From NCBI GenBank assembly GCA_003153935.1, contig PMCA01000021.1:1-35629 (forward strand): DNA of 35,629 nt, written 5' to 3'. The stretch is from Elusimicrobiota bacterium. GTDB lineage: Bacteria; CAYTYR01; UBA6262. Positions within the stretch are counted from its first letter, which is position 1. Every line of letters starts with the position of its first letter. The notes beneath the pieces are model-generated. The model did no database searches. It was not told where the DNA came from and saw only the letters and a list, made by a program, of their open reading frames with translations. Shown here piece after piece: positions 15,001 through 35,629 of the stretch. A program made the translations under genes and the position numbers.

Positions 15001-16521
15001 CTAAGGATTTAACTTATTCGCTTTAGCTCTCATTTCCTCGCTGGTGTGTTTCAACAGTCCGGCGGTTCTTTGTTCGTGGACGAGCGGATTGAACCCGGTC
15101 ATGCCGAGGATCCGCCACAAGGTGCTGGAGAGAGCGGAAACCCACCGCCCGCCACGCCCGCGGGGTATCTCCCATTCATAGAAGAAAGTGTTCAATACTT
15201 CCCGGTCCTTTGGCTGTATACTGGTATACGGTAGCACCCCTTCCGGCAAACCGGCCTGCTCGTTCATCCTCTCCATCGCCATCAGGAATCTTAACGCTTT
15301 TTCCTGGTACGCTTCCGCCCGGGCCGGGTTCCCTTGGCGCTGACTGTAGTCAGCCATCACCTGGTAAGCCAAGACCATCTCCCCCGTCCCCTCCCACCAG
15401 ATCAGCCGCGGGCGGTTTTTGTCCTTGCCTTGCTCATCGGTGAAATCAAATCCTTCGATCATTTCACCATTGATCTCCTGCTGGACCAGGAAATTCTCCT
15501 CGGCGAACTGGATCATCTTGACCGGGTTCAGGCCCCAGCTGACTAAAACTTCGGGACCCAGGGCCGTGATGCTCCAACTGACCGTATCCAGCGCCTTGGT
15601 CTGGTCCACTCCCTTCTCGTTATAGCCGCAATTAAAGCTCTGGTAGTTCTTATTGAAACCGACGCGCAGCAACCAGTTCTTGATACATTGCTTTTCATAC
15701 TGGATCTCTTTTAAACCGAATTTATTTGCGGCGAATATACTTTTCTCCTGCTCATCGGCTGTTTTGTATAATTCTTCCAGCATCTGCAGGACCGCGTAAT
15801 TATCGATGATGTTCTCAGTGGAATATACGGTGCTCCAATCGGGCCCCCAGCCGCTGCCCATGCTGACCGCGCCGCGACTGCCGTCGGCGAACCTGAAATG
15901 CGGCAGGCCATAGGCCCACTTGGCGATGGCGATGGCAAAATCCAGGTATTTGGCGGTGTGGCTCAACCGGTCGTACTGTAAAGAGGCCATAGCCACCCAC
16001 ATGTTCGGGCCGACATGGATGCGGTCGCCGTCCACGCCCATGAGCAGGTTATCCTGTCCCCAGACGTCAAATTCGGAGGTTTGGTAAGCGTTCAGCAGAC
16101 CGATATAACCGTTCTTTTCCACGAAGAAATTATCCTTAAGCACCGCCAGGATATCATCCGCCTTCTTGTTCTGGCCGTTGATGACGTAGACGATAACCGC
16201 CAGGGCCAGGTCATAAGTGAACGCCTGCTGGTCCAGCAAGCCGGCTTTCTGCGCGTAATACTGCTGGCTGGCTTCGTCATAATAATAATTGGAAGAGCCG
16301 TGGAAACTTTCCAGCAGGCCGGTGCCCTGGTTGCGCTGTCTTTCCAGGAAACTCAGGACCTTATGGTCCAGGGTATTCAGTTTTTCGAGATAATAATTTT
16401 TCTCTCCGGGAGTATTCAGGTTGGCCAGCACGAAACCGGTCTGCGCTCCGGCAACCGGCGCGGCTAAGCCCAGGCTGAGCAACAAGAAAGCGATAAGGAC
16501 CGGAGAATTATTCTTTACCAT
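15001..16521 (-). CDS. secreted protein of unknown family, paralogue A (possible helical-barrel glycosidase)
   Basis: A 506-residue exported protein with a signal peptide (residues 1-26, ending VAGAQ). It is the tandem paralogue of the gene at 13480-14985 and shares the blocks TGL(V/L)ESFHGSS, FTYDLALA, GDRIHVGPNMW, MGSGWGPDWST, FNCGYNE, TKALDTVSW, GFDFTDE, RLIWWEGTG and LPYTSIQPKD. The conserved Asp, Glu and Trp residues in these blocks are candidates for a sugar-binding cleft. The start codon overlaps the stop of the PorV-like gene by seven bases (ATGGTAA), indicating translational coupling. Expression should depend on the riboswitch leader at 20 kb. No C-terminal sorting domain is visible, so it probably ends in the periplasm or is exported by another route. 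Confidence 0.75.
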   Translation of the reverse strand: MVKNNSPVLIAFLLLSLGLAAPVAGAQTGFVLANLNTPGEKNYYLEKLNTLDHKVLSFLERQRNQGTGLLESFHGSSNYYYDEASQQYYAQKAGLLDQQAFTYDLALAVIVYVINGQNKKADDILAVLKDNFFVEKNGYIGLLNAYQTSEFDVWGQDNLLMGVDGDRIHVGPNMWVAMASLQYDRLSHTAKYLDFAIAIAKWAYGLPHFRFADGSRGAVSMGSGWGPDWSTVYSTENIIDNYAVLQMLEELYKTADEQEKSIFAANKFGLKEIQYEKQCIKNWLLRVGFNKNYQSFNCGYNEKGVDQTKALDTVSWSITALGPEVLVSWGLNPVKMIQFAEENFLVQQEINGEMIEGFDFTDEQGKDKNRPRLIWWEGTGEMVLAYQVMADYSQRQGNPARAEAYQEKALRFLMAMERMNEQAGLPEGVLPYTSIQPKDREVLNTFFYEWEIPRGRGGRWVSALSSTLWRILGMTGFNPLVHEQRTAGLLKHTSEEMRAKANKLNP

Positions 16522-17453
16522 TTGAACCCCAGGGAGATGCGATGAGTATCGCCCAGCAGGCCATACGGCATCCAGGCGTAGTTCAGGTTGACGCCGGCTA
16601 CTTTAAAGCCCATGCCGGCGCTGACCCCGGTGAAATTCTCGATATCATTGATGTTGGCGGTATCATAACCGGCGCGGAAAGCGAAATTCTTGCTGACCCA
16701 GTATTCCAGGCCGACGTTCTCGCTCAGTTTATTGGTCTCTTTGGGCTGGTACTTGGCGTCGGCTGACATGCAGAAAATATCTTCGACAAATATATACAGG
16801 ATGCCGAATTTAAAGGTGACCGGCAGTGGATCCTTTTCCTTGACGAAGGTCACGCCCGGGCCCAAATTCTGCACCGCCAGGCCCAAGGACAGGTTCGGTT
16901 TAACTTTATAAATGGTGCCCAGGTCGACGGCGTAACCATTGGCGCTTTCCGCTTCGATCTTCTGCTGAAAAGCCTTGAGGTTGGCGCCCAGCGCGAACCG
17001 GCTGCCGAAATTGTGGGCGTAGGTCAGCATCACCAGGCTCTGGTTGCTGGAGAAGGTTCCTACCTTGGTGCCGGACAAATCAGTCTGGTCGATAATGCCG
17101 GAATTTAAATAAGCCAGGGCCACGCCAAAGTTGTCCTTTTGGCCGACCGGCTGGATGTACCCGACATAACCGTAAGTGATGCCCTGCAGGTAATCGATAT
17201 AGCTGGCAATGGCTTCTTTATTCTGGTTCCAGCCGATACCCGCCGGGTTGTATTGCGGACCATTGGCGTCATTAGCCAAGGCGGTATAGGCTCCGCCCAT
17301 GGCTACCGGCCGGGCGCCCGCGCCTAAACGCAGGAATTGCGCGCCGGTGGTGCCGGTCCCGGAAGCTAAGGAATAAGATGGCATGATGGTTACTAAACTA
17401 AGCGCCAGTTCGACTATTTTGAACATCATGGTAATTTTTCTTTTAATGATCAT
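16515..17453 (-). CDS. PorV/PorQ-family outer-membrane beta-barrel protein
   Basis: A 312-residue protein with an N-terminal signal peptide (to about residue 30). The mature N-terminus GAQFLRLGAGARPVAMGGAYTALANDANGPQYNPAG is the hallmark of the PorV/PorQ (UPF0164) family. The rest alternates in short amphipathic strands and ends in an aromatic-terminated strand (ISLGFKW), as outer-membrane barrels do. In Bacteroidetes, PorV (LptO) shuttles cargo from the type IX secretion translocon. Here the gene follows directly after a protease with a T9SS/FlgD-like C-terminal domain, so it may help that protease reach the surface. GAGGG upstream supports the start at 17453. No other T9SS component (SprA, PorU, gliding-motility proteins) is in the window. 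Confidence 0.85.
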   Translation of the reverse strand: MIIKRKITMMFKIVELALSLVTIMPSYSLASGTGTTGAQFLRLGAGARPVAMGGAYTALANDANGPQYNPAGIGWNQNKEAIASYIDYLQGITYGYVGYIQPVGQKDNFGVALAYLNSGIIDQTDLSGTKVGTFSSNQSLVMLTYAHNFGSRFALGANLKAFQQKIEAESANGYAVDLGTIYKVKPNLSLGLAVQNLGPGVTFVKEKDPLPVTFKFGILYIFVEDIFCMSADAKYQPKETNKLSENVGLEYWVSKNFAFRAGYDTANINDIENFTGVSAGMGFKVAGVNLNYAWMPYGLLGDTHRISLGFKW

Positions 17454-17462
17454 CGTACCCTC

Positions 17463-19946
17463 TTATTTTATTATGGCTAATTTCCCGGCTTTGTGTTTGC
17501 CGTCCGGGCTATTGACCAGGAATATATACAGGCCGCTGGCCGCTTTCTGGCCGCCGTCATTGCTCGCGTCCCAATCCACCTGGCCCTGGGCGCTATCGTC
17601 GCTGAGAGTGCGGACCAGCGCTCCGGTCAGGTCGTAGATCTTAATGGTAGATTCAGGTATCAGGTTGGTAAAGGTGATCTTGGTGTGACCCAAACCGCTG
17701 TTAGGCTTGTAGGGATTCGGGAACACTTTAACTTCGTCCAGGGTCTCCAGGGAACCGGCCATAGAGAACAAACGGAATACTTTGCCCTGGACCAGAGTGC
17801 TGCCGGGTATTTCTACAGAGACGTTTCTTTCGTCACGGTGCACTATCTGCTGGCCGGATACTTCTTGCCACATGGTCGTGCTTTCATCCAGGGTGTAGAT
17901 CTTCAGGTTGGATTCCTGCCAGCCAACGATGCCGGCGGGATAACTTAATTGGACGGTGACACAGCCATTCAGAACCTCATTGCTCCTGAATTCCATAACG
18001 GCGGAGGAGAGCTCTTCAACCGTGGCGGTCTTAATCTGGGCTAACAGCTTATTGTCAGCGGAGCTGACCATGTTGATCTTATTTTCGGCCGGCTGGGTGA
18101 TATTCAGTATCTTCTGGTCATTGGTGGGATCCTGGGGCAGAATGACTTTGGTCTGGTAATCAGAACCCCAGAATATGGTGTCGGGACCGTTGCTGGTCCT
18201 GACAATATTATGTACCGGATAAACCGGCTGCGTGGAAGACAAGGTACCGGCAGCGCTGGCTGATACGGAGGATATACGGCTGTTGGTGGAGTTCAGTGAA
18301 GCCACAACGGCTATGTAGTAGCCTTGGCCTTCAGCTAATCCGGAGATAACGCACTGGGTGGCTTGCGGATCGCTGACCGGGGAATTAATGCAAACCTGGA
18401 CCCCGTCATCGGTAATGCCGGTGAAAGGATGCAGGGCGTAATAGACGGCGTATCCTTTAATGGCGGCGCCGGAATTGGCGGGCCAGGTAACGGTCAGGCT
18501 GTCGCCGTCATCGCTCGGAGTATCAAAGGCGTTGAAATCGGCGATCTTGACCTCTTCGCTGGTATCCAGGGTAAGGGCCCGGGCCGCGTCCACTTCGCCA
18601 TAGCCGTAATAATCGTCTTTACCGGCCTGGCCCAGGTCGTTAGCGGACTTAATGATCGCGTCTTCAACTTGCAGATTGGTGAATTCGGAATCTTTGGCTA
18701 AAATGAGGGCAGCCAAACCGGAGACAAATGGGGTAGCCATGCTGGTGCCGCTGGCGCGATAATAATTCACGCCAACAATGTCAGCCTCGTTATGGCTCAT
18801 ATCCGTCCCTTTTGCACGAAGGGAAAGGATGTCCACGCCGGGGGCGGTGACATCCACTATTGCGCCATAATTGGAGAATGAGGCTTTTTGACCGTTGGCA
18901 TCACAAGCTGCCACGCAAATGGCATGGATGTAATTGCCGGGGAAGAACCTTCCAGCATCGGTGTTGTTGTTTCCGGCGGCTGCCACAATTACGCAATTAT
19001 GATTATAGGCGTAATCCAGAGCGTCTTGGATCAAAGCGGAGGTACCGTACCCACCCCAACTGATGTTGATCACTCTGGCGCCATGATCGGCCGCGTAAGC
19101 TATGGCGCGCGCTAAACTGGTAGAAGCCCCGTTGCCGCTGTCAGACAGGCCTTTCAGGGCCATTATCTTAACCTGCCAGCAGACTCCGGTTATACCCATG
19201 GCATTGTTGCCCACCGCGCCAATGATCCCGGCTACGTGGGTGCCATGTCCGTGCGTGTCCATAATATTGTTATTGTCATCTACAAAATTCCAGCCCATAT
19301 CGTCATTTTCTAAACCATCGAAGATACCGCTGGTATTGTGCCAGACATTGTCTATAATATCGGGATGAGTGTAATCCAGCCCGGTATCGATCACGGCTAC
19401 TATAATATCACTGCTGCCGCGGCTGACGTTCCAGGCCTTCTCCATTTGCATCGCCTGCAGGCCCCACTGGTCGGAATAAGCCTGGTTCCAGGTACCGGTT
19501 TCATTGAAAAACTGGTCATTGGGGGTGCTGGCAATGCCGTACTCGTAAACCGGCTCCGCGCTTTCCACAAAGCCGCTGTTCTGGTAGGCCTTGATAACCT
19601 GTTCTGGATCTTGATCTGCGGAGAGAGAAACGGTGAACCACTGAGAAAGCTCATTACTCTTCTGGAGATCCTGGGGGACTATCGCTTGACCTTGACCGCT
19701 GTTATGGGAGGCGGTACTGAAAACCTGGTGCATGGACTTGATTCCAAGCTGTTGGCTTACATTATTAATACCGGATGATACGAACTGAGCGCTTGAGCCG
19801 GTATTATCGTGCCTTACCTTGATCAGGATCTCCCCCGCTTTTCTCAGTGGCGCCATTTCCTGTGCCTGGACTATAGAAGGGCTCGGGCTGTTAACCAGTC
19901 CGCTGATGATCGCTATTACTATCAGGCCCTTCTTCATGCTGTCCAT
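17463..19946 (-). CDS. secreted subtilisin-like protease with FN3 and FlgD/T9SS-type C-terminal domain
   Basis: A protein of 827 residues, numbered from the ATG at 19946. A signal peptide covers about 1-28. A fervidolysin-like propeptide follows (35-140). The S8 catalytic domain (165-455) has the triad Asp187 (AVIDTGLD), His234 (HGHGTHVAG) and Ser402 (SGTSMATP), all intact. A fibronectin type III-like domain (about 470-570), a beta-rich linker and a C-terminal FlgD-Ig/type A sorting-like domain follow (VKVFPNPYKP ... IKIYDLTGALVRTL ... ASGLYIFLV). I prefer the ATG at 19946: it lies six bases after AAAGGGAG, whereas the TTG at 19952 directly abuts it. The gene is first in its operon and sits just after two riboswitch-terminator modules, so cyclic dinucleotide levels probably control it. 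It may cleave surface or adhesion proteins; the target is unknown. Confidence 0.93.
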   Translation of the reverse strand: MDSMKKGLIVIAIISGLVNSPSPSIVQAQEMAPLRKAGEILIKVRHDNTGSSAQFVSSGINNVSQQLGIKSMHQVFSTASHNSGQGQAIVPQDLQKSNELSQWFTVSLSADQDPEQVIKAYQNSGFVESAEPVYEYGIASTPNDQFFNETGTWNQAYSDQWGLQAMQMEKAWNVSRGSSDIIVAVIDTGLDYTHPDIIDNVWHNTSGIFDGLENDDMGWNFVDDNNNIMDTHGHGTHVAGIIGAVGNNAMGITGVCWQVKIMALKGLSDSGNGASTSLARAIAYAADHGARVINISWGGYGTSALIQDALDYAYNHNCVIVAAAGNNNTDAGRFFPGNYIHAICVAACDANGQKASFSNYGAIVDVTAPGVDILSLRAKGTDMSHNEADIVGVNYYRASGTSMATPFVSGLAALILAKDSEFTNLQVEDAIIKSANDLGQAGKDDYYGYGEVDAARALTLDTSEEVKIADFNAFDTPSDDGDSLTVTWPANSGAAIKGYAVYYALHPFTGITDDGVQVCINSPVSDPQATQCVISGLAEGQGYYIAVVASLNSTNSRISSVSASAAGTLSSTQPVYPVHNIVRTSNGPDTIFWGSDYQTKVILPQDPTNDQKILNITQPAENKINMVSSADNKLLAQIKTATVEELSSAVMEFRSNEVLNGCVTVQLSYPAGIVGWQESNLKIYTLDESTTMWQEVSGQQIVHRDERNVSVEIPGSTLVQGKVFRLFSMAGSLETLDEVKVFPNPYKPNSGLGHTKITFTNLIPESTIKIYDLTGALVRTLSDDSAQGQVDWDASNDGGQKAASGLYIFLVNSPDGKHKAGKLAIIK

Positions 19947-19962
19947 TGCCAACTCCCTTTCT

Positions 19963-20001
19963 AAAACAGAAAACCGAGCTTTCTTCGATCCGAAAGCCCG
20001 G
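19963..20001 (-). terminator. intrinsic terminator A of the proximal riboswitch
   Basis: On the minus strand CCGGGCTTTC pairs with GAAAGCTCGG across an eight-base loop (one G-U pair), followed by TTTTCTGTTTT. It ends three bases before the AAAGGGAG ribosome site of the protease gene. It is probably the expression platform of aptamer A. Confidence 0.82.
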
Positions 20002-20016
20002 GTGGCATGAACAAGG

Positions 20017-20035
20017 GAAGATTATGGTAATCTTC
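20017..20035 (-). promoter_or_regulatory. alternative hairpin overlapping the aptamer A P1 strand
   Basis: The minus strand reads GAAGATTA, CCA, TAATCTTC, a perfect 8-bp stem with a three-base loop. It contains the GATTAC strand that would otherwise close aptamer helix P1, so the two structures exclude each other. This is a plausible ligand-controlled switch element. Confidence 0.6.
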
Positions 20036-20130
20036 GGTAGCACGGCTGGCTTGGAGTAAGCTTGCGCTTATTGTTAGCCCCTTTGGCTTTGCGTCCCCCG
20101 CTTTCGCGGGGTTTGCCTTTTTCGGATCAC
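20027..20130 (-). promoter_or_regulatory. cyclic di-GMP-I (GEMM-I) riboswitch aptamer A, proximal
   Basis: The minus strand shows the GEMM-I core in order: AAAGGCAAACC, a P2 stem of CCCCGC and GCGGGG capped by a GAAA tetraloop, GGGACGCAAAGCC, then a P3 arm (GGGGCTAA ... TAAGC-GCAA-GCTTA ... GCCAGCC) and the closing CTACCGAA. P1 is formed by GTGATC (20130-20125) with GATTAC (20032-20027). The base before GCAAACC is G, the c-di-GMP form rather than the A found in the cGAMP-sensing subclass. Known members bind c-di-GMP and control motility, biofilm and surface-protein genes. This copy sits nearest the protease gene and is followed by terminator A. Whether ligand turns expression on or off cannot be decided by reading. 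Confidence 0.9.
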
Positions 20131-20181: not shown

Positions 20182-20225
20182 AAAATACTAAAGCCGACCT
20201 GTCTATTAATATCCGACAGCTCGGC
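20182..20225 (-). terminator. intrinsic terminator B of the distal riboswitch
   Basis: The minus strand has an 11-base stem, GCCGAGCTGTC with GACAGGTCGGC, around an 11-base loop, followed by TTTAGTATTTT. It lies 18 bases after aptamer B and mirrors the position of terminator A after aptamer A. Confidence 0.8.
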
Positions 20226-20242
20226 TGGCATGCATAAGTCTT

Positions 20243-20342
20243 CATACTTCGGTAACTAGGCTGGCATCAATAAGCACGGCTTATTTTTAGCCCCTTTGGC
20301 TTTGCGTCCCCGGATTTCTCTGGGTTTGCGTTTTCGGATATG
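20243..20342 (-). promoter_or_regulatory. cyclic di-GMP-I-like (GEMM-I) riboswitch aptamer B, distal variant
   Basis: The same core as aptamer A is present: GCAAACC, a P2 arm with a GAAA loop (CCCAGA/TCCGGG, one A-C mismatch), GGGGACGCAAAGCC, AAGGGGCTAA, GCCAGCC and TTACCGAAG. P1 is CATAT with GTATG. The base immediately before GCAAACC is C, not the usual G. From memory of the V. cholerae Vc2 structure this is position G20, which contacts the ligand. It may bind another ligand, bind weakly, or be decaying. It is followed by terminator B and lies upstream of aptamer A on the same transcript. Confidence 0.82.
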
Positions 20343-20383: not shown

Positions 20384-20415
20384 ATAATAAGTAGCACCGA
20401 TCCCCATTTTGTCAA
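20384..20415 (-). promoter_or_regulatory. candidate promoter of the riboswitch-led protease operon
   Basis: On the minus strand TTGACA (20415-20410) lies 20 bases before TATTAT (20389-20384), within TATTATAGT. The spacing is longer than ideal, but the boxes are good and no better site precedes aptamer B. It begins 22 bases beyond the tsaD stop codon. Confidence 0.55.
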
Positions 20416-20436: not shown

Positions 20437-21447
20437 TCAGGCCAATTCCAGGTTGGGTTCAGCCTTAAATTCCAGCATTTCTCGACGGTATTTGGGCGAA
20501 CGGTTCCTGATCTTATAGTAGGCGGCACAGGCGATCATGGCCGCATTATCGGTGCACAGGACCAGGCTGGGGTAAAAAAGCTTCAGCCCGGTACCCCTGA
20601 TCTTTTCATCAAAAAGACGGCGCAGGGCTGAATTAGCGGCTACCCCGCCGGCTAATACCACTCTTTTTACTTTCAGCTTTTTGGCGGTTTGGAGGGTCTT
20701 GTTAACCAGGACCTCCACTACCGCCTGCTGAAAGCCCGCGGCTATATCTGCCGTCCGCTTAGCGCCTGATACCTGATGACCTGAGACATAATTGACTACT
20801 GAGGTTTTAAGACCGGAGAAACTGAAATCATAGGAACCTTCAAGATAGGGCCGGGGGAATTTTATGGCCGCGGGGTCACCCTGCCTGGCCAATTTGTCGA
20901 TGATCGGCCCTCCGGGATAGCCAAGCTTGAGCAGTTTCGCTACTTTATCGAAGGCTTCGCCGGCCGCGTCATCCCTGGTGCGTCCGAGTATCTTATATTT
21001 TTCGTGCCCCTGCTGCCAGACGAGCTCGGTATGGCCACCGGATACCACCAGTGCCAGGAACGGCGGCTTTAGTTCAGGATGTTCCAGGAAATTAGCGTAA
21101 ATATGGCCCTCGATATGGTTAACGGGAATCAGGGGTTTTTGATAGAGAGAGGCCAGCGTTTTGGCCGCCATAATGCCGACCAGCAGGGAACCTACCAATC
21201 CCGGGCCTTGGGTTACAGCCAGGACGTCGATCTTTTTCATATCCAGCCGGGCCAGGTCCAGGGCTTCCTGCACCACGAAATTGATATTCTGCAAATGATG
21301 GCGGGAAGCCAGTTCCGGCACCACACCGCCATACTTTTTGTGGATATTGATCTGAGAGGAGATAACGTTGGAGAGGAGTTTCCTGCCATCCTTCAATACA
21401 CTGGCGCTGGTCTCATCGCAGGAGGTTTCGATGGCTAAGATGTACAT
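20437..21447 (-). CDS. tsaD: tRNA N6-adenosine threonylcarbamoyltransferase
   Basis: A 336-residue protein, full length for TsaD. With TsaB and TsaE it transfers the threonylcarbamoyl group from TC-AMP to A37 of ANN-decoding tRNAs. Visible signatures are the N-terminal ILAIETSCDETS, the metal-binding NHIEGH (His111, His115), the nucleotide-fold motif VVSGGHTEL, DDAAGEAFDKVAKLL, FSFSGLKT and VVLAGGVAANSALR. It is the last gene of the long galT-to-tsaD run. A 115-base gap with a palindromic repeat separates it from the deacetylase gene, and it ends just before the promoter of the riboswitch operon. Identification is near certain. Confidence 0.98.
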   Translation of the reverse strand: MYILAIETSCDETSASVLKDGRKLLSNVISSQINIHKKYGGVVPELASRHHLQNINFVVQEALDLARLDMKKIDVLAVTQGPGLVGSLLVGIMAAKTLASLYQKPLIPVNHIEGHIYANFLEHPELKPPFLALVVSGGHTELVWQQGHEKYKILGRTRDDAAGEAFDKVAKLLKLGYPGGPIIDKLARQGDPAAIKFPRPYLEGSYDFSFSGLKTSVVNYVSGHQVSGAKRTADIAAGFQQAVVEVLVNKTLQTAKKLKVKRVVLAGGVAANSALRRLFDEKIRGTGLKLFYPSLVLCTDNAAMIACAAYYKIRNRSPKYRREMLEFKAEPNLELA

Positions 21448-35580: not shown

Positions 35581-35629
35581 AGCCGAGGGCGGGACTTGAA
35601 CCCGCGACCTACGGTTTACGAAACCGTTG
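35581..35629 (-). tRNA. tRNA-Thr (anticodon CGU), 5' part beyond the window
   Basis: The minus strand shows the 3' two-thirds of a tRNA. The anticodon stem is ACGGT/ACCGT around the loop TTCGTAA, so the anticodon is CGU (reads ACG, threonine). A five-base variable loop and a T arm follow (GCGGG, TTCAAGT, CCCGC), then the acceptor strand CCTCGGC. CCA is not encoded. The D arm and 5' acceptor strand are outside the window. It sits 22 bases before the first ligase-like gene on the same strand. Confidence 0.93.

Follow-up and report, generated by a model that had tools for sequence, protein, structure and literature searches.

Two c-di-GMP-I aptamers lie in series on the minus strand of the window (the whole stretch of DNA that was analysed, 35,629 nucleotides), between tsaD, which ends at 20437, and a subtilase gene that starts at about 19952. 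The distal (5') aptamer, B, spans positions 20248..20340 and matches the Rfam family RF01051 with 64.7 bits (E = 1.3e-10). The proximal aptamer, A, spans positions 20033..20127 and matches the same family with 65.3 bits; both scores are above the gathering cut-off of 35 bits. Aptamer B is followed by the hairpin of terminator 1 (20192..20226) and then a U-rich tract, and aptamer A by the hairpin of terminator 2 with its U tract (19974..20001), which was found in a consensus scan and in the folds. The initial annotation had placed two aptamers on one mRNA, and the leader indeed contains two complete riboswitches.

Our set contained five genomes of the phylum. Four of these are members of one family, namely the genome of the window (G000) and G001 to G003, with three from one genus. 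Between tsaD and aptamer B, a TTGACA motif (20410..20415, minus strand) is, judged from its sequence, the -35 element of a probable promoter with an uncertain -10 element. The motif is invariant in all four family genomes and absent from the output of a consensus promoter scan.

The controlled gene encodes an exported subtilase (Pfam Peptidase_S8) with fn3 and FlgD_ig/sorting-like sequences at the C-terminus (17463..19952, minus strand). An orthologue lies 3' of the tandem in each of the four family genomes, and the three outside the window have 58–60% protein identity to the copy in the window. The second gene of the operon, on the same strand, codes for a PorV-like outer-membrane protein (16515..17453, Pfam PF19572), and this order is kept in G001. 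The third encodes a 506-residue exported protein (15001..16521, minus strand), which has a counterpart in G001 and gave no match in a Pfam search. At the far end of the window (35581-35629) a tRNA gene is truncated by the contig end.

Expression platforms and direction of switching

Each terminator carries, in its 5' arm and loop, a complement to the P1 5' strand of the same riboswitch, and this strand is also the predicted antiterminator. In riboswitch B this strand (AUAUCCGA, 20334..20341, minus strand) is a perfect 8-nt complement to UCGGAUAU (20209..20216, minus strand) within terminator 1. In riboswitch A, the corresponding strand (GAUCCGAAA, 20120..20128, minus strand) is complementary over 9 nt to UUUCGGAUC (19987..19995, minus strand) within terminator 2. 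Both partners were assigned from complementarity together with a pairing computation. Complements of this length occurred in shuffled terminators with a frequency of 0.002 for B (8 nt) and 0.0001 for A (9 nt). When only the RNA 5' of the terminator's 3' arm was folded, the pairing of the P1 5' strand with the terminator had a probability of ~1 in all eight riboswitches of the four genomes, in a calculation without pseudoknots or kinetics.

A terminator hairpin with a U-rich tract is predicted after both aptamers in all four family genomes, and terminator 1 is the MFE fold in each of them. By prediction, each aptamer is served by a separate expression platform with mutually exclusive pairings of the P1 5' strand, kept in all four genomes, as is characteristic of tandem complete riboswitches. 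Without ligand, the P1 5' strand would pair with the terminator and block its formation. Ligand binding would close P1 and free the terminator, so that transcription would end. Under this model both riboswitches would switch transcription OFF.

The base at position 20 and its conservation

Structural work names G20, A47 and C92 (Vc2 numbering) as the ligand contacts of this fold (PMC4744006, PMC3764141). In the cmscan alignment to RF01051 (model position 11), the base of aptamer B at the G20 position is C, at position 20330 on the minus strand. It lies within the segment 20315-20342, where the initial annotation had reported C in place of the expected G. This C20 sits directly 5' of the pairs G21-C46 and C22-G45. 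A shifted register that places a G at position 20 would break both pairs, and no register restores the G that the initial annotation had named as evidence against its reading. Aptamer A carries G20 (20117, minus strand) in all four family genomes. A47 and C92 are present in both aptamers and kept in all four genomes, in agreement with the earlier view that the rest of the core of aptamer B is intact. We class aptamer B as a fold variant of RF01051 with putative c-di-GMP sensing.

The tandem precedes the orthologous subtilase gene in all four family genomes, each time with C20 in the distal and G20 in the proximal aptamer. Across these four genomes, 77% of the columns are invariant in aptamer B, 92% in terminator 1, 63% in aptamer A and 74% in terminator 2, compared with 36% in the spacer that separates terminator 1 from aptamer A. 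Aptamer B and terminator 1 are thus the best-conserved parts of the leader, above aptamer A, which argues that selection maintains B as a functional switch. C20 is not a random private mutation, since it recurs in the distal aptamer of all four genomes while so little of the spacer is invariant. On these comparisons, aptamer B is a selectively maintained C20-A47-C92 variant, and the conservation agrees with the initial suggestion of something other than simple decay.

In G003, the P2 helix of aptamer B is replaced by a different, fully paired helix that resembles P2 of aptamer A from the same genome, and the substitutions are compensatory. In G002, both aptamers have an identical P2, and in the window P2 of aptamer B contains one A·C mismatch. 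The pattern in G002 and G003 is suggestive of an exchange of P2 between the A and B copies, yet aptamer B has C20 and aptamer A has G20 throughout. The exchange tracts could start just 3' of position 20, which would weaken the point that C20 and G20 were retained.

C20 aptamers in other genomes

A pattern scan of ~85,000 genomes, in which A47 but not C92 was required and hits were filtered by P2 pairing and RF01051 score, yielded ~50 further C20 loci in many phyla; nearly all of them retain C92. According to the record titles, they belong to Chloroflexota, Omnitrophota, Actinomycetota (four Actinoplanes-like), Bacillota, Nitrospirota, Desulfobacterota, Fermentibacteria and others. The initial annotation had considered C to be neither of the known forms. 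The base itself is real, but it is a recurrent natural form in many phyla and not an isolated oddity.

C20 accounts for ~1% of GEMM-I aptamers in the sampled genomes, which indicates that it is usually selected against. In Omnitrophota, Chloroflexota and Desulfobacterota, position 20 was counted with a fixed-gap pattern, leaving out the seed genome and repeat-like chance matches in each phylum. Among 149 listed Omnitrophota aptamers, two had C, three A and ~144 G. No C was found among ~32 sampled aptamers of Chloroflexota (2 A, ~30 G), ~21 of Desulfobacterota and 31 of other relatives. Scans of viral contigs gave too few real aptamers for counting this position.

C20 loci are over-represented in tandem arrays, where G20 aptamers are often their neighbours: outside the phylum of the window, 11 of 47 belong to such arrays vs ~4 of 106 other loci listed from the same hosts (Fisher p ~4e-4, a rough comparison). 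This suggests that C20 differs from the common form in function, or at least does so depending on the context. Mixed arrays occur in the order C-then-G (L070, L087, L089, L112) as well as G-then-C (L110, L116, L135, L141), and the array in L117 reads A, C, C. Three arrays of adjacent GEMM-I aptamers (L117:3064-3340, L143:1983-2384 and L145:207-388) mix A20 and C20, in one case also with G20, on a single transcript. A quadruple array from Erysipelotrichaceae (L089:520-975) carries C20, C20, G20 and G20 from 5' to 3' in aptamers that are otherwise near-identical, and so provides a natural near-isogenic comparison.

One genome, Geobacteraceae bin-1988 (G073; L240-L254, L119), contains ~18 GEMM-I aptamers in which position 20 is variously G, A, C or U. 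Those read comprise approximately 5 G, 6 A, 5 C and 1 U, and several precede sensor- or chemoreceptor-like genes. The gene contexts in this genome do not sort by the base at position 20.

Ligand of aptamer B and comparison with known riboswitches

The reading that we favour, with middling confidence, is that of tandem OFF switches of the c-di-GMP-I fold over a subtilase/PorV-like operon, in which B is a C20 variant whose threshold for c-di-GMP most likely differs from that of A and is probably higher. The retained C92 implies that one ligand base should be guanine, and C92 should still pair with it (the beta base). C20 would take over the contact of G20 to the other ligand base, probably through a protonated C+·G Hoogsteen-type or an alternative pair. 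This pairing chemistry rests on general nucleobase geometry and was not computed. The c-di-GMP affinity of B would be altered, probably weakened, which would give a two-threshold repressor. The pair of B and A would then widen or deepen repression and not form a two-signal gate.

At the contact edge, the donors and acceptors of neutral C are arranged like those of adenine, which on paper would favour adenine in the ligand, and hence cGAMP. In Vc2, mutation of G20 (to a base that is not named) is reported to cut binding 30,000-fold (PMC4744006). In Cd1, mutating the equivalent base leaves c-di-GMP binding in place, and the position was called a selectivity factor, not a hard filter (PMC9262584). 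Aptamers with A20 prefer cGAMP, and A20G converts such a sensor to c-di-GMP (PMC6456294); the A20 aptamers of Desulfobacca acetoxidans follow the same cGAMP trend (PMC9481103). An affinity weakened 30,000-fold, as in the Vc2 mutant, might still be physiological; alternatively, B might prefer another ligand.

Each of the four family genomes contains 9-13 GGDEF matches, and a DAC (c-di-AMP cyclase) is encoded in all four; a SMODS cyclase was not found in these genomes. Among the GGDEF domains checked, a set that covers the weaker matches in part, none has Ser at the D344 equivalent that marks Hypr enzymes, and the residue is mostly Asp. Asn occupies this position in one GGDDF protein of G000 and in one GGDEF protein each of G001 and G003; promiscuous dinucleotide synthesis by these Asn-bearing proteins is conceivable. 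With many GGDEF proteins, no SMODS cyclase found and Hypr Ser missing from the GGDEF domains checked, c-di-GMP with altered affinity is the favoured reading. The genome content offered cGAMP no support as the ligand, given that no recognised synthase was found among the domains checked. The genome of the window encodes two proteins with a GGDDF motif (L261 and L262; G000:C11 and C12), and the Asn-bearing protein of G000 is one of them. In Geobacter, an enzyme with a GGDDF motif actively synthesises cGAMP (PMC8835794).

A possible, if rather unlikely, alternative is that C20 switches specificity, which would make 3',3'-cGAMP or another guanine-containing cyclic dinucleotide the ligand of B, with c-di-GMP as that of A. 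The initial annotation's logic gate would exist only if the two ligands differ; two OFF switches would then make it a two-input NOR gate. Position 20 does set specificity in this fold (PMC6456294; for Desulfobacca acetoxidans, PMC9481103), C20 and G20 are kept apart in all four family genomes despite the apparent P2 exchange, and C20 shares arrays with G20 and sometimes with A20. Against this, none of the GGDEF domains checked had the Hypr Ser, a SMODS cyclase was found in none of the four genomes, and the hosts of C20 are phylogenetically scattered. We are similarly doubtful, perhaps a shade more so, about the broader proposal that C20 marks a further GEMM-I specificity subclass (CAC type) for a dinucleotide other than c-di-GMP, with the mixed C20/G20 arrays of several phyla as natural two-dinucleotide NOR/AND gates. 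The data are accounted for at least as well by c-di-GMP sensing at a changed affinity as by altered specificity.

It is improbable that C20 is near-neutral, binding c-di-GMP about as tightly as G20 does, with the tandem acting as an ordinary digital doublet for one ligand. In favour of this, 347 c-di-GMP-I doublets are known (PMC9481103), responses become more digital when c-di-GMP riboswitches are in tandem (PMC4759541), and the Geobacteraceae genome carries each of the four bases at the position; the low overall share of C20 and its excess in tandem arrays speak against it. Very improbable indeed is a decaying aptamer B that has lost ligand binding and become a passive leader segment: C at a contact base and the P2 mismatch in the window would fit, but not the high conservation of B with terminator 1, the compensatory P2 changes in G003 or the antiterminator pairing kept in four of four genomes. 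For B, c-di-GMP with altered affinity comes first in our ranking, ahead of cGAMP or another guanine-containing dinucleotide and, in third place, c-di-GMP with equal affinity.

In the commonest cyclic-dinucleotide riboswitch, no specificity switch is better known than position 20: ligands have been assigned to G and A, and the UAU type has an Rfam family. In the literature covered, C carries no such assignment, yet C20 turns up across many phyla and holds its place next to G20 aptamers. The identity of its ligand would show either that arrays tune thresholds to one messenger or that another messenger-sensing subclass exists.

The fold and the tandem architecture are already known, whereas the C20-A47-C92 type appears to be new. 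We found no report of a measurement on it in a literature search that fell short of key primary studies. Aptamer B resembles c-di-GMP-I riboswitches (RF01051) such as Vc2 in its fold, P2/P3, GNRA tetraloop, A47, C92 and conserved junction, and in the terminator expression platform. It differs in position 20, which is G in that family and in aptamer A but C in aptamer B of all four genomes. The 3',3'-cGAMP riboswitch (GEMM-Ib) has the same fold and a specificity change at the same position; it carries A20, however, whereas B has C20, and the enzyme domains checked in the four genomes included no recognised cGAMP synthase. GEMM-Ib aptamers are sometimes close to G20 aptamers; in Desulfobacca acetoxidans, neighbouring clusters contain related aptamers of the A20 and G20 types (PMC9481103).

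The variant subfamilies c-di-GMP-I-UAU (RF03168) and c-di-GMP-I-GGC (RF03167) have the consensus U20-A47-U92 and G20-G47-C92, respectively, matching their names. Aptamer B has C instead of U at both 20 and 92, and both aptamers have A47 and not G47; the combination in B is without a family in the Rfam release searched. Aptamer A scores past RF03167 at 20032-20126, but its A47 excludes it from the GGC type. An annotation by best clan match would mislabel aptamer A in this way, and likewise several C20 loci. Architectural parallels are the tandem c-di-GMP-I doublets and triplets, for example Bc3-5 of Bacillus thuringiensis (PMC4759541), in which independent riboswitches are arranged in series, each with a terminator, as here. 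Bc3-5 was reported to be an ON system, whereas the present tandem is predicted to switch OFF and its aptamers differ at a ligand-contact base.
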